From an uncultured Gammaproteobacteria bacterium (GTDB lineage Bacteria > Pseudomonadota > Gammaproteobacteria > Pseudomonadales > Pseudohongiellaceae), in assembly GCA_913060975.1 (NCBI GenBank), contig CAJXVC010000003.1, forward strand, positions 248,001-312,000: a stretch of 64,000 nt of DNA, read 5' to 3'. The position numbers were made by a program, and so were the translations under genes. The notes under the pieces were generated by a model. That model did no database searches and was not told the origin of the DNA. It saw only the letters and a program-made list of their open reading frames with translations. Shown here one piece after another: positions 50,685 to 61,179 of the stretch (position 1 is its first letter; the number at the start of each line of letters is the position of its first letter).

Positions 50685-53303
50685 TTAGAACTCGGCAGTC
50701 AGACGGCCGAAATAGTAAGCACCTTGCCAGTCAACTGCAGTACCTGAAGAGTAGATGCGGCCACAGCAGTAATCACTGATGGAGTCGACGTTGGGGTATT
50801 CATCAAAGATGTTACGACCGCCGACGGAGATGCGGAACATTTCGTTGATCTGGTACTGAGCTTCCAGATCGGTGAACAGAATGTCATCGAAAGTCTGGAA
50901 ACGCAGCGGATTACCACCTGAGTTGGCATTGGTCGCCTCACCGTACCAGCTCATACGACCAACCAGAGTCAGATCACCGATACCGTGACGGGCTGTGAAT
51001 ACGCCGCGGAAATTCGGATCGAAGTTCTCGAAATCGAATTGCTCTTCGGCGTTGAGTACCGCACTCGGATCAGTAGCGAATTCTTCCTTGTTGTAGTTCA
51101 AAGAAGCTGTGAACGTTGTCGTACCAGCATCACCCCAATCAACCGGCAATGTGGCAACAACGTCTACACCGCTGGTCTCAGTATCGAAAGCGTTGGTGAA
51201 GTAGAACACACCACCGATTGACTCGGCACCGGCAACACCAGCTGCAGCCAGAGCTAAATAGTTAGTGTAGGCATCGCCCGAGGTTGGATCGGTTGACACG
51301 TCACGAGTCGACACAGCACGGGTGCGATCTTCGATATCGATACGGTACATATCCACCGTCAGATCCAGCTCACCCAATGTTGCGGTGAAGCCCAATGTGT
51401 AGTTAGTAGACAGTTCAGGTTTCAGAGCAGTGGCACCCAGTGCCTGGGCCACAGGACCGCCAGCAGGGAACAGGCCAGTGGCTACCGGGAAACCATCAGG
51501 CAGACGCGTGGAGACGTTAATTGTGCCTTGCTGACCCGGGGTCGGTGCTCTGAAACCGGTACCGAAGGAGGCGCGAATACCGAATGTGTCAGTCACATCC
51601 AGCTTACCAGCCAACTTACCGACGATCTCGGAATCAAAGTCATCGTAGTCTTCGTAACGGATGGCGCCTTGCAGGAACAGGTTGTCAGTCACGTCAGCAC
51701 TGGCATCAGCATACAGTGCGAATGAACTGCGCTCGTACAGCTCGGAGAACTGTGGCGAGTATCCAGGAAAACCATTGGAACCAACGCCGACAACCTGAAA
51801 CACGGGGTCACTGGAGTCGGAACAGTCAAGTGTTGAGCCATTGGCAATCGCTGTGGCGCCAGCAGTAGTAGGAGCGCCGGCATCGGTACACAAGTTCCAG
51901 GGATCGGGAGTCGCATAGGGGCCGTCGATATAGGAGGCAGTTTCACCTTCAACGACTTCATAGGACTCGTCCATGTAACTGGCACCAAAGGCGAATAACA
52001 CCGGGCTGGCCAGGCTCGTGTCAACTTCATAAGTGAAGTCAGCCTGAAACTGGGTTTCCGTGTTGATCAGGTCACCAGGGTGGAACGAAGTCGGGCTGTC
52101 CGGACCCATGGATGGGTTCACGGTGTTTTTTAGCTCGTATTTAATTTCGTTCTTACCGGTACGGCCGCTGAAATCATATGACAGGCCGTTCTCCAGCAAG
52201 CCGCGCATGCCGCCAGCCAGTGAGAAGTCATAAATCTCACCAAAGAAGCGAGGCGTAAAGCCGCCCGGGAATTTTTCCAGTGGCCAGTACAGAGAGCCGT
52301 CAGGCTCGCGCAGATATTCGATCGTGCCGTTTTCCGGGTAACGATAGAAGAAGCCGCCGTCTGTGCTGCTCTCGGAATAGCTACCGAAGGCATACGCTTC
52401 TGTGTCAGCGTCGAGATCATAGCCAGAGTTGAAGAACACACGACCGGCTTCCTGATTTGGCGCACCCCATGGGTTAACCACGTCACCAGGCCCGATGTTG
52501 GCCGCAGGTACGCCAGCCTGGAAAGCAGGGTCTTCGGTGTATTGTGTGTATGAAGCTGTTGGGTCGTAACCTGGCAGAGAGGGGTCAACACAGAACCAGG
52601 ATTCACAGTACTGCTCGGCGCGTGTTGTGGCGTCCATCTCTTCAAGCTGACCTGATAAACTAAAGAAGCCGCTGTCGCCCAGTGCGAAGCCGATGTTGCC
52701 TGACACAGTCATCGCTGCGCCGTCGCCTTCAGCGTATTCACCGCCATCAATGCTGATGCTGCCGCCTGAAGTATTCTCTTTCAGAATAAAATTGATAACA
52801 CCTGCAATGGCGTCTGAACCGTATTGTGCCGCGGCGCCATCACGCAGAACTTCGACGTTCTGCAGGGCTGCGGCAGGGATTGTGGCAACGTCTGGGCCCT
52901 GTGTGCCAGAACCACCGATAGAGACCAGTGCGGCGCGGTGACGACGCTTGGAGTTGACCAGAACAAGAGTCTTGTCGGTCGGCAAGCCGCGCAGGGTAGG
53001 TGAACGGACGAAAGTGCCGCCGTCGGAAATAGGAGCCCGGTCGACATTGTATGAAGGAACCAGAGTTTGCAGAATGTTCGCAGTATCAGTGTAGGAAACT
53101 GCTTCAATCGCTGAAGCGTCAAACACATCAACTGGCACCGGTGAATCGGACACCGTGCGAGGGCGACCGCGCGCACCAGTAATAATAATTTCTTCCAGCG
53201 AAGAAGCAGCGGGATCATCCTGTGCCAACGCAGTGCCTGAGAAGCTACCTGCCGCAATGACGGCTGCCGTTATCAGGCTTGTGGGTTTTTTACGGAACTT
53301 CAT
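50685..53303 (-). CDS. Large TonB-dependent outer-membrane receptor
   Basis: An 872-residue receptor. ATG 53303 has AGGAG seven bases upstream. A signal peptide ends at G-T-A-L-A-Q-D. The TonB box region (L-E-E-I-I-I-T-G-A-R-G-R) is followed by the plug (V-P-V-D-V-F, L-R-G-L-P-T-D, V-L-R-D-G-A-A-A-Q-Y-G-S-D-A-I-A-G-V-I-N) and a large barrel ending in phenylalanine. Loops are rich in Asp, Pro and Gly. The closest type I recognise is the broad group of environmental receptors for peptides, amino-acid-like or carbohydrate ligands. It is divergent from the amino-acid dehydrogenase operon, which makes a peptide or amino-acid-derived ligand plausible but unproven. Confidence 0.92.
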   Translation of the reverse strand: MKFRKKPTSLITAAVIAAGSFSGTALAQDDPAASSLEEIIITGARGRPRTVSDSPVPVDVFDASAIEAVSYTDTANILQTLVPSYNVDRAPISDGGTFVRSPTLRGLPTDKTLVLVNSKRRHRAALVSIGGSGTQGPDVATIPAAALQNVEVLRDGAAAQYGSDAIAGVINFILKENTSGGSISIDGGEYAEGDGAAMTVSGNIGFALGDSGFFSLSGQLEEMDATTRAEQYCESWFCVDPSLPGYDPTASYTQYTEDPAFQAGVPAANIGPGDVVNPWGAPNQEAGRVFFNSGYDLDADTEAYAFGSYSESSTDGGFFYRYPENGTIEYLREPDGSLYWPLEKFPGGFTPRFFGEIYDFSLAGGMRGLLENGLSYDFSGRTGKNEIKYELKNTVNPSMGPDSPTSFHPGDLINTETQFQADFTYEVDTSLASPVLFAFGASYMDESYEVVEGETASYIDGPYATPDPWNLCTDAGAPTTAGATAIANGSTLDCSDSSDPVFQVVGVGSNGFPGYSPQFSELYERSSFALYADASADVTDNLFLQGAIRYEDYDDFDSEIVGKLAGKLDVTDTFGIRASFGTGFRAPTPGQQGTINVSTRLPDGFPVATGLFPAGGPVAQALGATALKPELSTNYTLGFTATLGELDLTVDMYRIDIEDRTRAVSTRDVSTDPTSGDAYTNYLALAAAGVAGAESIGGVFYFTNAFDTETSGVDVVATLPVDWGDAGTTTFTASLNYNKEEFATDPSAVLNAEEQFDFENFDPNFRGVFTARHGIGDLTLVGRMSWYGEATNANSGGNPLRFQTFDDILFTDLEAQYQINEMFRISVGGRNIFDEYPNVDSISDYCCGRIYSSGTAVDWQGAYYFGRLTAEF

Positions 53304-53810: not shown

Positions 53811-55409
53811 ATGAATAAACGAGTGACACGACGCGAACTTCTGACATTACTGGCAGCAACCGGTACCAGTGCGACTGTGCTAAACGCCAGTGCAGCGCTG
53901 GGTATGATTCCAGATACGCGCCTTAATTTACCCGAGATTCCCCGGGCAGATCCCGCTAACAGACCTAGTGTGGTAATTCTTGGTGCTGGTATTTCCGGGC
54001 TTACCGCTGCCTATGAACTGGACAAAGCCGGTTATGATTGCGTAGTGCTGGAAGCCAATTCCCGTGCTGGTGGTCGTTGTTACACTGTACGCTCCGGCGA
54101 CGTGATTGATGAAGTGGGTAACCCGCAAGTCTGCGAGTTCGATGACGAACCTCATATGTATTTCAATGCCGGCCCCGCGCGCATTCCCAGCTCACACCGC
54201 AACCTGATGCATTACTGCAAGGAATTGGGTGTCGAGCTTGAGATATTCATTAACGAAAACAAAGAGACTTATTTTCAGGATGACGCCATGTTTGGCGGCA
54301 AACCTGTGAAGAACAATATCCTGACTACCAATGCGCGTGGCTTTATGGCCGAGATCATGGCCAAAAGTTTTACCACTGCCGAATTGGACGAGTCATTTAG
54401 CGAATACGAAGCCGAGGCATTGATGAGCGCGGTGCGGTCGTTCGGTGATCTTAATGACGATGACCTTTATACCGGTAGTTTTCGTGCCGGTTACAAAGCC
54501 GGCGGTTTTATCGATCACGGCGTACAGAAAGAAGTGGTCGCCTTCAAAGAGTTGTTAAAGACGCGTTTTCTGAACATGGCATTGAGCCAGAACGAAGGCG
54601 AAACTGGTCCGGTGTTGTTCCAACCTGTTGGCGGCATGGACATGATCGTCAAGGGTTTTGAGCGCGCGCTACCTGACAAGATTTATTACGACATTCTGGT
54701 CACCAGCGTGCAGTTGAATGGCGATGGCGTGGATGTGCAATACGAACACAACGGCATGAAGTACGCGATCTCTGCGGACTATTGCTTTAATTGTATCCCT
54801 ACCCACTTGATGACCGGTATACCGAACAACTTCCCATCTGAATACGTGCAGGCAATGCAGTACGTCAAACGTGGTGAGGCTTACAAATCAGCGTTCCAGG
54901 CCAAGCGACGTTTTTGGGAAGACGACGACATCTACGGCGGTATCACCTGGACCAATCAGCCGATTCGCCAAATCTGGTATCCACCGCATGGTGTGCATAA
55001 AGCCAAAGGTGTCATTCTCTCTGCTTATGACTTCGGTGGCGGCATGCACTTCACGCGATTATCTCAGGAAGAACGTCTGGAAACTGCGATCAAGCAAGGA
55101 GAAAAAGTGCATCCGGATTACCGTCAGCTGACGGAGAAGGGTATTACCATCGCCTGGCATCGCATGAATCATATGTTAGGTTGTGCGGCGCGTTGGTCGA
55201 GCAGTTTTGGTGGCATGACTGAAGAAGAAGAGCGCATGTACCACACCTTGCAAGCACCGGCTGGTGGTCGTCACTATACGATTGGTGACCAGATTTCCAT
55301 GCACACTGCCTGGCAAGAGAGCGCGATTCTATCCGCATTCTGGGCCATTAATGACATGGTTGAGCGCCGTGGCGGTACGGGCAGGATGCCTGGTCAACAA
55401 GTCGTCTGA
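53811..55409 (+). CDS. Tat-exported flavin amine oxidase, L-amino-acid-oxidase-like
   Basis: A 532-residue FAD enzyme. V-T-R-R-E-L-L-T-L-L is a twin-arginine signal. The dinucleotide motif I-L-G-A-G-I-S-G-L-T-A-A-Y and E-A-N-S-R-A-G-G-R follow. F-N-A-G-P-A-R-I-P is the LAAO block in which the arginine binds the substrate carboxylate. The C-terminal FAD motif is A-I-L-S-A-F-W-A-I. Enzymes of this superfamily such as NicA2 pass electrons to a cytochrome c instead of oxygen. A diheme cytochrome c gene begins 34 bases downstream, so this is probably an L-amino-acid dehydrogenase. Its product would be a 2-imino acid. Confidence 0.88.
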   Translation: MNKRVTRRELLTLLAATGTSATVLNASAALGMIPDTRLNLPEIPRADPANRPSVVILGAGISGLTAAYELDKAGYDCVVLEANSRAGGRCYTVRSGDVIDEVGNPQVCEFDDEPHMYFNAGPARIPSSHRNLMHYCKELGVELEIFINENKETYFQDDAMFGGKPVKNNILTTNARGFMAEIMAKSFTTAELDESFSEYEAEALMSAVRSFGDLNDDDLYTGSFRAGYKAGGFIDHGVQKEVVAFKELLKTRFLNMALSQNEGETGPVLFQPVGGMDMIVKGFERALPDKIYYDILVTSVQLNGDGVDVQYEHNGMKYAISADYCFNCIPTHLMTGIPNNFPSEYVQAMQYVKRGEAYKSAFQAKRRFWEDDDIYGGITWTNQPIRQIWYPPHGVHKAKGVILSAYDFGGGMHFTRLSQEERLETAIKQGEKVHPDYRQLTEKGITIAWHRMNHMLGCAARWSSSFGGMTEEEERMYHTLQAPAGGRHYTIGDQISMHTAWQESAILSAFWAINDMVERRGGTGRMPGQQVV

Positions 55410-55443
55410 ACCGAATCAATCACCTAGTTGAGTAGAGTAGTAA

Positions 55444-56085
55444 ATGAAATCTAGAAATTATTTGGCACTGTTGCTGTTGGCAGGCGCTGCGTTGACGCAA
55501 ACTGTTAGCGCACAACAATATGAAGCTTTTCATCTGGCTGGGCTCAACCTGGCCGAACGCGTCTGTGCTACTTGCCATGGTCCGAACGGCAAAGGCAATC
55601 CGATCGTCGGTGGTCCGCGCTTGGCGGATATTGAACCCTGGTATTTGCGTAATCAATTAATCGGCTTTCGTTCCGAATTTCGCGGCACACAAAAAGACTA
55701 TATTCCTGGCTATGAAATGCAGGATTCCGTAGCCCGTATGTCGGATGCGGAAATTGAAGAAGTCGTTGCCTATATTTCGAGCTGGTCGGCGTCGCCCAAT
55801 GCACCCACCATTACCGGCAATACCAATCGCGGTTCAGAATTGTATGTGAGCTGCGCTGCCTGCCATGGTATCGAAGGTCAGGGTAATGAAGCACTGGCAG
55901 CGCCGGGGCTGACTGAAAAAGATGACTGGTATTTGTTTCGCCAGCTCAACTTGTTCAAGTCGGGTTATCGCGGGAGCCATCCCGAAGACCAATGGGGTCA
56001 GCAGATGCGAGCATCAGTAGGTGTATTGGAAACATCGCAAGACATCAATGATGTGCTTGCCTATATCAACACTCTCGGTAGCTAG
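55444..56085 (+). CDS. Periplasmic diheme cytochrome c
   Basis: A 213-residue protein with signal peptide ending at V-S-A-Q. Two class-I cytochrome c domains have C-A-T-C-H at 41-45 and C-A-A-C-H at 137-141, with distal methionines probably in Y-E-M-Q-D and in Q-Q-M-R-A. The fold and length resemble cytochrome c4, a soluble diheme carrier that feeds terminal oxidases. It lies between the flavin amine oxidase and RidA genes, so it is the likely electron acceptor of the flavoenzyme. Confidence 0.93.
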   Translation: MKSRNYLALLLLAGAALTQTVSAQQYEAFHLAGLNLAERVCATCHGPNGKGNPIVGGPRLADIEPWYLRNQLIGFRSEFRGTQKDYIPGYEMQDSVARMSDAEIEEVVAYISSWSASPNAPTITGNTNRGSELYVSCAACHGIEGQGNEALAAPGLTEKDDWYLFRQLNLFKSGYRGSHPEDQWGQQMRASVGVLETSQDINDVLAYINTLGS

Positions 56086-56153
56086 TGATATCGGGTCGAG
56101 AGAAACTACGCTGGTGACACCAGCATTTGATTAAGCGTGATGAGGAAGTAAAT

Positions 56154-56861
56154 ATGACTAAGCCCAAGAAGACCGAAGAGCCGAACGTAATCGACAATGA
56201 GGCTGAAGAGGTCGAAACTGAGGAAGAAACCGGATCGGATTCTTTTATGCCTCAGGTGAGTAATTTCAGTATGGTGTTAATTACCGGGTTTGGTCTGGCA
56301 CTGCTTGTGATCATTGTCATGTTGGCCAGCGGCACCAGCCCAGATTCAGAAATTGCTGCGCAAAGCGAAAGTACTTCCAGTACTCCAGCTACGGCAGCCC
56401 CACAGCCTGCAGCAACGCCTGCGCCAGTCGCAGCGCCACAAACAGGTGATATCGTCGGCGATGGCGTAATAGAGCGCAAAGGCGAAGGCCGGCATTTCTA
56501 CACCACAATCAAGATACCAGCCGGTGCAGAGACCCTCTACCTGAGTGGTTCGGGTGCGCGTCAGCAGGAAAACGGCACCTGGGGTGACATGGAGCAACAG
56601 ACTGTGGATACCTTTAATCGCTTCAAGGAAAATTTAGAGGCTGAAGGTTGGTCAATGTCAGACATCGTTCAGGTGCGAGCGTTTGCTGTAGCTGGCGAAT
56701 ACGGACTGCTGGATTTTGATGGCTTCAACCGCGGCTATCGCCAGTTCTTCGGTACTGAAGAGAATCCCATGAAGCCCGTGCGCTCGTTCGTGCAGATCGC
56801 TGGTCTGGTGGTGCCAGGCTGGTTGGTTGAGATTGAGATTCGTGCCGCGCGAATGCCCTGA
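56154..56861 (+). CDS. Membrane-anchored RidA family protein
   Basis: A 235-residue protein. ATG 56154 has GAGGAAG upstream; a TTG at 56127 is in frame. The acidic cytosolic N-terminus is followed by one helix (about residues 37-55). An Ala/Pro/Thr-rich linker leads to a RidA domain (about 110-235), which topology rules place in the periplasm. RidA hydrolyses reactive 2-imino acids to 2-oxo acids and ammonia. The carboxylate-binding arginine is kept in K-P-V-R-S-F-V. Most RidA proteins are free cytosolic trimers of about 130 residues, so the anchor is unusual. Position in an operon with an imine-producing flavoenzyme supports the role. Confidence 0.88.
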   Translation: MTKPKKTEEPNVIDNEAEEVETEEETGSDSFMPQVSNFSMVLITGFGLALLVIIVMLASGTSPDSEIAAQSESTSSTPATAAPQPAATPAPVAAPQTGDIVGDGVIERKGEGRHFYTTIKIPAGAETLYLSGSGARQQENGTWGDMEQQTVDTFNRFKENLEAEGWSMSDIVQVRAFAVAGEYGLLDFDGFNRGYRQFFGTEENPMKPVRSFVQIAGLVVPGWLVEIEIRAARMP

Positions 56862-56892
56862 GCGTTCGCTACATGTGAATAGACCTGAACTG

Positions 56893-56920
56893 AAAAGAGA
56901 GGCTTCGGCCTCTCTTTTTT
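56893..56920 (+). terminator. Intrinsic terminator of the amino-acid dehydrogenase operon
   Basis: AAAAGAGAGGC and GCCTCTCTTTTTT pair around TTCG, a very stable tetraloop, followed by a T-run. It closes the three-gene unit and may also act on the minus-strand gene that follows. Confidence 0.9.
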
Positions 56921-58015: not shown

Positions 58016-59611
58016 TTACTGGCGCTGGATCGAATTGGGTTCCAGCTGTGGATACTCGATACCCAGTTGTTCCAGGTAGGAATCGTAACGTGAGGCGTCG
58101 TAGTAGAGCGCTTCAAGCTGTTCCTTGTACAAAGCCATGATTTCGGCATTCTTCTCAATCGCCGGCTCATCATCCGGACCGATGAAAGGAATGTATTCCT
58201 CCTCGGCGGTTTGTACATTGTCGAAATAATCGTGGGCATCGCTGACCAGATTTTCATCCATGAGCAAATCGAGCATGGTGGTTGCCATTACTTTGGCGCC
58301 AGCGACTGCGCCCTTGTGGGCAATTGGTGTGGCCATCGCCATGGCGCTAGACCAATGGTGGCCTTGCAAGCCGCCGACGTTGGATGGAAAACGCAACGTG
58401 ATAGTCGGGACGTTCCAGGACACATCGCCAATATCATCTGAACCACCTGAGCGCGGAGTCTCGGCTGGTTCTCCGATCGGGCGTAAATCAGTTGCCAGAC
58501 CTTCCGGTTCGTCGGCACCCATTAGCGTTTGTAGCGCTTTGGCAAAGCGCTGGTCGTCTTCTGACCAGGTTGGCAGGCCCACAGAGCGAATATTGGCATC
58601 CATAGCCAACGCTATCGGGCGATTGAAGTGACGGGGATAAGCTGCACCGACGATGCGCCGGCTCATTGTGGTGTCGGTCATCATGGCCGCACCTTCGGCG
58701 ATCCGTTGCAAGGTATCAAAATTTTCCCGAATACCGTCGGCAGTAATCTCGCGAATGAAGTACCAGACACTGGCGTAGGAAGGGACAACGTTAGGTTGGT
58801 CACCGCCATTGCTGATGACATAGTGTGAGCGCTGCAGTGGGTGCAAATGCTCGCGGCGGAAGTTCCAGGCCACGTTCATCAGTTCCACGGCGTCCAGCGC
58901 GCTGCGGCCTTCCCAGGGATCGCCGGCGCCATGTGCGGCGATACCATCAAACATATACTCCACAGAGACCAGACCAGTACCGGTCGAGGCGCCCCAGCTG
59001 ACTCCCAAATTACTTGAAACGTGAGTGAACAGGACGGCATCAACACCATCGAACATGCCATCGCGCGCATACCAAGCCTTGGTTGCCAATAGTTCTTCGG
59101 CGATGCCCGGCCACAAGACGATCGTACCGGGCATGTTTTCGCGTTCCATGATTTCTTTGACTGCCAACGCTGCGACAATATTGACCGCCTGGCCGGAGTT
59201 GTGACCCTCACCGTGCCCGGGAGCTCCTTCGATCATGGGCTGGCGATAAGCCACCCCGGGCATCTGTGAAGCGCGGGGGATACCATCCACATCTGAGCCG
59301 AGAGCGATAACTGGCTCACCGCTGCCCCAGCTTGCCCACCACGCAGAAGGAATACCGGATACACCTTGCTCAACAGTAAAGCCATTGGTTTCCAGTAGGT
59401 CGGTAATGTAACGCTGGGTTTCAAATTCCTGAAAACCCAGTTCGGAAAAAGAAAACAGGCTGTCGACAATTTCCTGAGTAAGTTTTTCCATGCCGTCGAC
59501 AGAGCTTATGGCATCGGCTTTTAAACCAGAAAAACCAGCCTGCCCAAAGGCGACAGAGTTGATGAGAAGGGAACTGGCGAGTCCCAGAAGTAGTTTGCGT
59601 AACGCTGGCAT
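58016..59611 (-). CDS. Exported M20 family amidohydrolase (AbgB-like)
   Basis: A 531-residue metal-dependent hydrolase. ATG 59611 has GAGGAA close upstream and gives a signal peptide (M-P-A-L-R-K to A-F-G-Q); the frame is open to 59656. The first metal block is I-A-L-G-S-D-V-D-G-I-P and the next is G-E-G-H-N-S-G-Q. A glutamate pair follows in A-E-E-L-L. The layout fits M20D peptidases such as aminoacylases and AbgB, which cleave p-aminobenzoyl-glutamate. The periplasmic location suggests it releases amino acids from N-acylated compounds outside the cell, which fits the other amino-acid genes nearby. Confidence 0.92.
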   Translation of the reverse strand: MPALRKLLLGLASSLLINSVAFGQAGFSGLKADAISSVDGMEKLTQEIVDSLFSFSELGFQEFETQRYITDLLETNGFTVEQGVSGIPSAWWASWGSGEPVIALGSDVDGIPRASQMPGVAYRQPMIEGAPGHGEGHNSGQAVNIVAALAVKEIMERENMPGTIVLWPGIAEELLATKAWYARDGMFDGVDAVLFTHVSSNLGVSWGASTGTGLVSVEYMFDGIAAHGAGDPWEGRSALDAVELMNVAWNFRREHLHPLQRSHYVISNGGDQPNVVPSYASVWYFIREITADGIRENFDTLQRIAEGAAMMTDTTMSRRIVGAAYPRHFNRPIALAMDANIRSVGLPTWSEDDQRFAKALQTLMGADEPEGLATDLRPIGEPAETPRSGGSDDIGDVSWNVPTITLRFPSNVGGLQGHHWSSAMAMATPIAHKGAVAGAKVMATTMLDLLMDENLVSDAHDYFDNVQTAEEEYIPFIGPDDEPAIEKNAEIMALYKEQLEALYYDASRYDSYLEQLGIEYPQLEPNSIQRQ

Positions 59612-59814
59612 GACATTCCTCGATAAGTAGAGATGCAAAGGGGAATAATGCTGCAAGTGCTATGCCACTGGCTATAGGCGCAGGAACGGTAAGGTCATGG
59701 TTCGATTGCTGCGCTGGAATAGCTCGTAAAGAAACTGCGCGCAGACCTGAGGGCAGATCAGGGCTTCACTACAAGGCGCTAGCAATGGCGCGCCCTGCAG
59801 CGTATTTGGCGAGA

Positions 59815-61179
59815 CTACATGCCGCCCGGTGGACCCATCTGCGAATTACCGCTACCGACAGACTTGTTGAACGACGTATTCGGGGTTCCCTTGAAACAAG
59901 CGAGTACCCAGGGATACTGGTTGACGATGTAGTAGCCATACGCACCGTTTCGCATCATGCCGTTGCACTCATCAAGGTCGCCGCTGCCAGCGACATAGTG
60001 ATAGTCGTCAACAAAAGTCCCGTCATAGGTGCCGCCGGGGTCATTGGCGCTTTGCGGTCGGCTGCCCGTTTTTAATTGGTAGCTACTGGTCACCGCGCGG
60101 ATCGCGCCGTTGTCGTTGATATAACTGCCAAAGATCGGAAAGCCATCGGCGGCGAATCCTATCAATGGCGACTCAGAAGCGCCTTGCTGATCAAACAACG
60201 CCAACGGGTTGCCGTGGTAGTGATAGGTGCCATCGGGTTGTGTGTGGGCGTTGTGACTGTCAGTGCCGAACTGGGTAAGCGGGCTCATGGGGTCAAAGCG
60301 CCAGGGCTGATCCATATCATTGCAACCAATGCGTTCATCACCCACGTTGTAGCAAGCCGCCGCGAGCAAATCGATCTTCACACCGTTTAGCAAGATGCCA
60401 GTATCAGTCGTCAGCGAAATTGCGGTAGGGCTACTTGCGAATGCAGGATTTAACGGGATGCGAAACTCAGCATCCACAGCACTGACATTGGTAGCAAACG
60501 CGGCACTGGCATCATTAAAGTCATGGTTGGGAATACTGTTGGCAGTGATGACGCATTCGCTGCTGTCAGCAGCGACGCTAATCGCTACATTGCCAGTAAA
60601 GGAGAGGCCGCGCTTGAGATCGCTAACTGCCGAAGTCAGATTCTCGGCATAGTAACTACATTCCGGGCGTCGATTGCTGAGCAGAGCATCAGATATGTCG
60701 ACCGCATCGGGCGTGCTACCCATGACTGCGGCGAGTTTGCCGACGTAGATCAGATCGGGTCCGAGTTGTTCGCCCAATGCCCAGACATTGTCGCCCTGCA
60801 CGCCGAGGTGGATTTGTGTCTCGGTATAGTGCCGCACATAGAAACCCTGAAGCACTTGTGTTTCGGGATTGGCCGGCTGCAGCAAGTCGCTAAAATTGGT
60901 TTCAGCGTAGGCAAACAGGGCGTTGGCATTGGCCAATGTGTCAGCTTGCAAAGCGCCAGATAACAGGGTCAGTGAGGTAGTGAGCCAGAGCGCAGTACGC
61001 TGCACGAGACCCCTGCGTAATGGTTTGCCTGGTGTGTCTGGGTAGCCTCGAGGGTTAGGCAGGTTTTGCGGGGTTGGTGGTTCCAGAGTGCGTTCAGTAG
61101 AGAGTTCTGTAGAGAGTTCACTAGAGAGTTCAGTGCGCCACGGATTCAATTGCGCTGGCAGATAGGTCAAATGCTTCAT
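59815..61179 (-). CDS. Exported YHYH-domain protein
   Basis: A 454-residue frame. The C-terminal half is a YHYH domain: D-G-T-Y-H-Y-H-G-N-P, A-D-G-F-P-I-F-G and D-E-C-N-G are the family blocks, of unknown function, probably metal binding. The middle has a second domain of about 80 residues with N-A-L-F-A-Y-A-E. The start is uncertain. The first 58 residues contain an E-L-S-x repeat and no signal, whereas GTG 61005, preceded by AGGGG, would start directly at a signal peptide (V-Q-R-T-A-L-W to L-Q-A-D). The shorter start would give about 396 residues and leave the repeat as untranslated leader. Confidence 0.82.
   Translation of the reverse strand: MKHLTYLPAQLNPWRTELSSELSTELSTERTLEPPTPQNLPNPRGYPDTPGKPLRRGLVQRTALWLTTSLTLLSGALQADTLANANALFAYAETNFSDLLQPANPETQVLQGFYVRHYTETQIHLGVQGDNVWALGEQLGPDLIYVGKLAAVMGSTPDAVDISDALLSNRRPECSYYAENLTSAVSDLKRGLSFTGNVAISVAADSSECVITANSIPNHDFNDASAAFATNVSAVDAEFRIPLNPAFASSPTAISLTTDTGILLNGVKIDLLAAACYNVGDERIGCNDMDQPWRFDPMSPLTQFGTDSHNAHTQPDGTYHYHGNPLALFDQQGASESPLIGFAADGFPIFGSYINDNGAIRAVTSSYQLKTGSRPQSANDPGGTYDGTFVDDYHYVAGSGDLDECNGMMRNGAYGYYIVNQYPWVLACFKGTPNTSFNKSVGSGNSQMGPPGGM
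61096..61131 (-). repeat. 12-bp tandem repeat, three copies
   Basis: On the plus strand the units are AGTAGAGAGTTC, TGTAGAGAGTTC and ACTAGAGAGTTC. If translated they encode the E-L-S-T repeat near the possible N-terminus of the YHYH protein. If the gene starts at GTG 61005 they lie in its leader. Confidence 0.7.

Follow-up and report, generated by a model that had tools for sequence, protein, structure and literature searches.

The window analysed here, a stretch of 64,000 nucleotides from an uncultured gammaproteobacterium of the family Pseudohongiellaceae, contains a run of three genes (53811-56861) that can be best explained as a respiratory periplasmic amino-acid dehydrogenase accompanied by its own tethered imine hydrolase, a reading to which we assign a probability of roughly 0.7. 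An L-amino acid, or a close derivative of one, would enter the periplasm, perhaps via a divergently encoded TonB-dependent receptor, and the flavoenzyme would take a hydride from it and release a 2-imino acid. The two electrons would pass singly to a c4-like diheme cytochrome and from there to a terminal oxidase instead of O2. A Rid domain, tethered to the membrane through a single N-in/C-out helix with a flexible linker, would then accelerate imine hydrolysis, which yields a 2-oxo acid and ammonium. These products would be taken up, in relatives probably by a symporter encoded within the cluster. The anatomy excepted, we infer all steps of this scheme.

The cluster consists of three open reading frames, all on the plus strand, with 34 and 68 bases between neighbours. 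Genes 1, 2 and 3 match the Pfam families Amino_oxidase, Cytochrom_C and Ribonuc_L-PSP, every one above its own cut-off. The frames, profiles and short gaps confirm the three-gene unit that the original prediction had read from gene order and motifs, and a search for the same order elsewhere located the trio at a second place in this genome and in many others. A hairpin with a U-run lies 3' of the Rid gene, which is why the unit likely ends there; it was missed by the terminator pattern scan and emerged from the energy calculation. The same pattern scan, which returned 7 sites overall against 4.7 in shuffles, marked a weak terminator-like site between the cytochrome and Rid genes. As judged from the sequence, the short gaps and the hairpin are compatible with co-transcription.

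Table 1. Features of the three-gene cluster and its surroundings (window positions).
Feature	Position	Strand	Evidence
LAAO-like FAD enzyme, 532 amino acids, likely periplasmic L-amino-acid dehydrogenase	53811..55409	+	profile, solved relative, fold match
Tat-type motif TRRELL, residues 6-11	53826..53843	+	read from sequence
Dinucleotide-binding motif GAGISG, residues 58-63	53982..53999	+	sequence
Arg124, aligned with snake-venom LAAO chain position 90	54180..54182	+	alignment
Lys359, aligned with snake-venom LAAO chain position 326	54885..54887	+	alignment
Diheme c-type cytochrome, c4-like, 213 amino acids, Sec-type signal	55444..56085	+	profile, relative, signal by eye
Haem motif 1, CATCH	55564..55578	+	sequence
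Haem motif 2, CAACH	55852..55866	+	sequence
Rid protein with predicted membrane anchor, 235 amino acids, ATG start	56154..56861	+	
Predicted transmembrane helix, residues 37-58	56262..56327	+	model, hydropathy, Lys/Arg asymmetry
Linker rich in Ala/Pro/Ser, residues 59-105, without Lys or Arg	56328..56468	+	sequence
Rid domain, residues 106-235	56469..56858	+	profile, fold
Arg210, conserved Rid arginine	56781..56783	+	alignments
Hairpin, U-run in 3' arm, likely terminator	56892..56919	+	-23.7 kcal/mol, z -5.43
Divergent TonB-dependent receptor, possible outer-membrane door	50685..53303	-	profile

The flavoenzyme begins with the Tat-like N-terminus MNKRVTRRELLTLL and scores 120.6 bits against Amino_oxidase. 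Its best solved relative is the L-amino-acid oxidase (LAAO) of Rhodococcus opacus (2JAE, E 3.9e-78), and its structural model, with a mean predicted local distance difference test (pLDDT) score of 77, finds its best fold match in 2jb1 (TMt 0.80, 33% identity). Together with the TRRELL motif and the profile match, these results uphold the earlier assignment of an LAAO-like flavoenzyme with a Tat motif; the genome carries one TatC gene. Both arginines of the Tat RR, as well as Arg124 and Lys359, are invariant in 23/23 aligned sequences. The residues of snake-venom LAAO that correspond to the latter two are Arg90, which we take to bind the substrate carboxylate, and Lys326, which presumably sits near flavin N5. 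Arg124 thus argues for a carboxylate substrate.

Gene 2, proposed earlier to encode a diheme partner, does contain two Cytochrom_C stretches and two haem motifs, and its closest solved relative is cytochrome c4 (1etp). Within the flavoenzyme superfamily, a Tat signal together with a cytochrome gene next door predicts dehydrogenases that use the cytochrome, and this has experimental support: members with both features mostly used the cytochrome and were poor with O2 in stopped-flow experiments (PMC12224317). Both genetic features are present in the window, where the Tat motif of the flavoenzyme is joined by a neighbouring cytochrome with a Sec-type signal (signals read by eye). The cytochrome-using flavoprotein amine dehydrogenases of Akram et al. 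2025 (NicA2, Pnao with CycN; PMC12224317) belong to the same superfamily and likewise have a Tat signal and an exported cytochrome as neighbour, and clade 1 of that study has c4-type diheme cytochromes, the type that gene 2 resembles. They differ in their substrates, which are nicotine-pathway amines, and Rid occurs 0 times in the main text of that paper.

When 84,980 species genomes were scanned, 91 relatives emerged, among them metagenome-assembled genomes named Pseudohongiella, and 80 were kept. Whole-genome searches at E <=1e-60 detected the enzyme in 11 of the 200 phylum genomes, 27 of the 293 order genomes and 76 of the 99 family genomes, this genome being counted in each; a draw of 200 centred on another genome recovered, apart from this one, only the ten already seen in the phylum set and added nothing. 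From these searches, 24 stretches covering all matches outside the family were taken, along with 56 of the 106 matches in other family genomes. After removal of identical cores, the scan loci and whole-genome searches yielded 138 distinct enzymes. All loci were found by searches with the window enzyme, and the shares given here describe a biased sample, not population rates. A strict Tat motif is retained in 134 of the 138 enzymes, with RR or KR variants in the other four (L095, L096, L113, L164). Among the 127 loci with at least 3 kb downstream, a c-type cytochrome gene lies next door in 98 (83 by profile and 15 by a CxxCH-containing frame only, counted without individual inspection), a same-strand Rid gene within 3 kb in 74 and a symporter gene in 34, while 23 have none of the three. 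The symporter gene of the relatives, placed between those for the cytochrome and Rid, belongs to the glutamate/aspartate-dicarboxylate class and falls under the cut-offs of the named NCBIfam models. In this genome, a symporter 72% identical to theirs is encoded elsewhere (contig C9).

The cluster is also found on plasmids. In the 8 of 34 plasmid records examined, a cytochrome c gene stands beside the enzyme in 7/8 and a Rid gene in 4/8. Plasmids of Sulfitobacter, Paracoccus and Microvirga have the order enzyme-cytochrome-RidA; those of Rhizobium, Mesorhizobium and Deinococcus have enzyme and cytochrome with no Rid in the stretch, the cytochrome gene coming first in Deinococcus. On pDSHI02 of Dinoroseobacter shibae (L199:1-5485), cytochrome oxidase subunit I, a hypothetical protein and an oxidase assembly protein precede enzyme and cytochrome, again with no Rid. 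A plasmid of the Gram-positive Metabacillus (L206:3321-6584) shows enzyme-Rid-tatA-tatC with no cytochrome in the listed stretch, as if the enzyme-Rid pair brought its own Tat translocase.

The original prediction had presented the three genes as a compact new system. That claim had to be dropped, since lao-cccA-ridA of Gluconacetobacter diazotrophicus PAL5 (GDI2456-2454), described in 2016, has the same genes in the same order on one strand, and its authors suggest a periplasmic LAAO, electron transfer by the cytochrome and imine hydrolysis by RidA (PMC5053998). The system was therefore already known in outline, and cytochrome use has been shown in the superfamily (PMC12224317). The G. diazotrophicus LAAO carries a Tat signal and is 34% identical to R. 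opacus LAAO, in line with the Tat motif and R. opacus type of the window enzyme. The window differs in its diheme cytochrome and in the predicted uncleaved anchor of its Rid; export or anchoring of RidA is unmentioned in the available excerpts of PMC5053998. In lao::Tn5 mutants, transcripts of lao, cccA and ridA drop, indole-3-acetic acid is lost and most tryptophan is left unused (PMC5053998, Table 2). The loss of indole-3-acetic acid could indicate that such a unit makes 2-oxo acids or auxin-like signals, such as indole-3-pyruvate, for release rather than for respiration or nitrogen supply. Chlamydomonas LAO1/LAO2 offer a parallel, with an extracytoplasmic (periplasmic) LAAO and a RidA-like partner; they differ in being eukaryotic, in making H2O2 and in pairing without a cytochrome (PMC10805672). 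The glutamate/aspartate-type symporter in 34/127 loci, on the other hand, fits uptake, and we consider production for release unlikely for the window cluster.

The respiratory reading assigns imine hydrolysis to the product of gene 3. Its preferred start is ATG 56154, behind GAGGAAG; TTG 56127, the mechanical start of the frame, was dropped in favour of it. The Rid domain scores 58.4 bits against Ribonuc_L-PSP (PF01042, cut-off 27.3) and, in the TIGR00004 RidA subfamily, 32.9 bits, below the NCBIfam cut-off of 106.25. Its nearest solved proteins by both sequence and fold are PSPTO_3006 and PFL_1385 (PDB 9bka, 9bkc), Rid3 proteins that act as broad imine deaminases on imines from a LAAO and an arginine dehydrogenase (PMC5619798). 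These differ in having been purified from E. coli lysates, and the words signal and periplasm are absent from the main text of that paper. The catalytic arginine, whose loss in homologues would have counted against the original prediction, is kept in 40/40 aligned homologues (40 of the 120 listed among 875) and in 79/79 locus, plasmid and window rows covering the site.

The predicted helix and linker extension set the window Rid apart from the free cytosolic RidA form. Its model consists of one helix (residues 37-58; pLDDT 88-89 for residues 41-60), a low-confidence linker (pLDDT <50 for residues 66-111) and a Rid-like fold. Across 40 relatives with an anchor, the 19-residue segment of highest hydrophobicity begins near residue 39. 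Lys/Arg average 2.8 before this segment vs 0.17 in the 30 residues after it, and 38/40 have more Lys/Arg before than after. The helix, the Ala/Pro linker and this charge bias agree with the earlier placement of the Rid domain on the periplasmic side, as a prediction.

A comparison across loci puts this anchor into a wider context. The comparison covers 80 distinct Rid rows, of which 75 come from loci and 4 from plasmids, the last being the window; it leaves out the second Rids of L015 and L016, the L098 Rid (3.4 kb off), the opposite-strand Rid of L095 and identical domains. By eye, export signals are found in 79/80 rows: 59 of cleavable type, 10 with a lipobox and 10 signal anchors with a long acidic tail, the form of the window Rid. 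For the L105 Rid, the signal is visible solely if translation starts at a GTG, which has a good ribosome site in front of it. What had been singled out earlier, an anchored periplasmic Rid, hence stands as special only in its uncleaved anchor, Rid export itself being the rule in the loci examined.

A tree of the Rid domain, built on 124 columns and poorly resolved, requires 2 changes for the anchors, with the cleavable-type L050 nesting among them, which suggests that the anchor is close to a single lineage. Lipoboxes need 5 changes, at least 4 of them forced by well supported branches, so lipidation appears to have been gained or lost repeatedly. A census of Rid genes in 7 genomes (34 loci) gave export for 7/7 cluster Rids and 5/27 others (Fisher p 1.5e-4). 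Here L187, 4.2 kb from the nearest enzyme, was counted as cluster (6/6 vs 6/28 without it), and the exported L188 of genome G402, 6.3 kb from that genome's enzyme, as other. Of the 14 Rids in one of these genomes, the Rid beside the enzyme is the sole one with a signal. The open-access literature searched, with subscription papers outside its scope, contained no report of an exported or anchored bacterial Rid, and Rid export with repeated tethering beside these enzymes seems unreported in it. What is new here is the uncleaved anchor on the Rid protein, a lineage variant of a general tendency to export Rid beside this enzyme.

The second copy of the cluster, on contig C4 of the same genome, illustrates this variation. 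Its enzyme is 61%, its cytochrome 45% and its Rid domain 78% identical (130 residues) to those of the window, and a short cleavable-type signal replaces the anchor on its Rid. With an anchor in the window and a cleavable-looking signal in the second copy, one domain is apparently exported by two devices in one cell. A TonB-dependent receptor, 37% identical to the divergent receptor of the window, precedes this copy. Such a receptor was rejected as a fixed fourth part of the system, since a similar frame occurs in only 13/81 loci (second copy included), in 2 of these at 3.8 and 7.2 kb.

Several observations weigh against the respiratory reading. Regarding the electron route, the closest solved enzyme, R. 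opacus LAAO, bears an oxidase name, and no cytochrome adjoins the enzyme in 29/127 loci. Oxidase and dehydrogenase are not reliably told apart by sequence, and c4-type diheme pairs reacted only modestly in solution, the authors suggesting that the membrane matters (PMC12224317). The flavoenzyme might accordingly be an O2-using periplasmic LAAO that produces H2O2 and ammonium, in scavenging or antagonism, with the cytochrome used otherwise, for example in peroxide removal. The retained lysine tied to the O2 reaction would fit such an oxidase, as would the H2O2 in the LAAO chemistry described by the G. diazotrophicus authors (PMC5053998). However, this lysine is common to dehydrogenases too, and PMC12224317 treats a comparable one, Lys340 of NicA2. 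In the same study, Tat-plus-cytochrome pairs of clades 2 and 3 mostly performed far better with cytochrome than with O2, and in its stronger pairs the cytochrome rate exceeded the O2 rate 290-550 times. Given also the cytochrome next door in 98/127 loci and the cytochrome oxidase gene that joins the D. shibae run, we regard an O2-dependent oxidase as unlikely.

The remaining points of this kind concern Rid as part of the respiratory dehydrogenase system. No Rid gene lies within 3 kb in 53/127 loci, and 4/8 plasmid loci have none. The signal types were read without SignalP, and the L113 Rid is the sole row of the 80 without an export signal. Its enzyme keeps TRRE but has a weak h-region, with a value of 0.79 vs a mean of 1.29 (sd, standard deviation, 0.30) over 128/138 enzymes. 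L113 was not used as a matched cytosolic pair, because other enzymes' h-regions are equally weak and the automatic RR pick was wrong in some rows and came up empty in 10 enzymes. In the sister loci L073 (7466-8833) and L104 (4636-6150), the reading frame of the diheme cytochrome continues through to that of Rid with no stop; a ribosome-site-like stretch precedes an internal ATG, and the signal reading presumes that start, so that both could be cytochrome-Rid fusions instead. Rids remote from the enzyme can be exported as well (the 5/27 of the census), and a neat rule is contradicted by the exported L002 and L005 Rids of this genome and by three away from the enzyme in G402.

Topology has weak points as well. 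The Rid model has a mean pLDDT of only 64 and is weak outside the helix and domain, and the acidic N-terminal tail (11 Asp/Glu vs 3 Lys/Arg in the window; a mean of 9.6 Asp/Glu in the 40 anchored relatives) makes the charge argument weaker than usual. An inverted, N-out protein with a cytoplasmic Rid domain would accommodate such a tail. It would run counter to the Lys/Arg bias in 38/40 relatives and to the Ala/Pro linker 3' of the helix. The stronger argument for a periplasmic domain, outweighing that from charge, is its agreement with the other forms, as the same domain follows a cleavable-type signal in 59 rows (second copy included) and a lipobox in 10. We therefore give the inverted orientation very little credence.

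For a respiratory dehydrogenase, the nature of the substrate leaves more room for variation. Without any change in chemistry, an opine, a modified amino acid, a compound of the arginine pathway or some other derivative might take the place of a free L-amino acid and depend on a TonB-dependent receptor or on a peptidase. Receptors beside both copies and receptor-like frames in 13/81 loci are in keeping with this, and Rid3 proteins act on iminoarginine (PMC5619798). In five Rid-less loci (L059, L060, L067, L069, L070), the arginine-succinylation genes astA, astD and astB lie upstream of enzyme and cytochrome together with an M20-type hydrolase, and two more have partial astB frames; these genes hint at arginine in that branch. 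The symporter genes hint at acidic amino or oxo acids. Invariance of the arginine aligned with snake LAAO Arg90 speaks against a derivative, and so does the tryptophan left unused by the lao mutants (PMC5053998). We treat the derivative as a tentative option and somewhat unlikely.

Several neighbouring genes were observed alongside the main subjects. In the window, an M20-type amidohydrolase with a signal-like N-terminus (58016-59656, minus strand) lies ~1.2 kb past the cluster, followed by a YHYH-domain protein (59815-61179, minus strand); the Microvirga cluster has an M20 family gene directly 5'. Elsewhere in this genome (contig C12 near 62399), locus L005 encodes a Rid-like protein (YjgF_endoribonc; L005:1315-1911, plus strand) with a Tat-type signal. 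Tail to tail with it lies a class I/II pyridoxal-phosphate (PLP) aminotransferase, also with a Tat-type signal (L005:1930-3072, minus strand); an exported PLP enzyme paired with an exported Rid would be unusual. The further exported Rid of L002 (1354-1827) is followed by a polyketide-cyclase-like protein, and by eye the second Rids 3' of the clusters in L015 and L016 resemble it. In L038, L041, L044, L047 and L049, the enzyme has no adjoining cytochrome or Rid; upstream of it, the opposite strand encodes a related cytochrome together with a TonB-dependent receptor. L044 (CAMCRC010000005.1) comes from a metagenome-assembled genome titled Klebsiella pneumoniae; its enzyme is 59% identical to the query, like those of Gammaproteobacteria metagenome-assembled genomes in the same scan, and the bin probably carries a wrong label.

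Discussion of Rid enzymes has mostly centred on their role as intracellular guards against reactive imines. We hypothesize, at about even odds, that the Rid family has a whole extracytoplasmic branch, fixed to a respiratory amino-acid dehydrogenase. Oxidation would take place outside, electrons would enter the cytochrome chain, and the imine would be hydrolysed in place by a Rid tethered several times (in one main signal-anchor lineage and through at least 4 lipobox gains or losses), with uptake by a dedicated symporter. If so, imine stress would exist, and be handled, outside the inner membrane, where it arises. It would also allow direct tests of a specific imine source for a Rid, the search for such sources having been hampered, with growth defects expected to be subtle (PMC5619798). 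The LAAO-like genes of many gammaproteobacteria would then stand for respiration, not for peroxide production.

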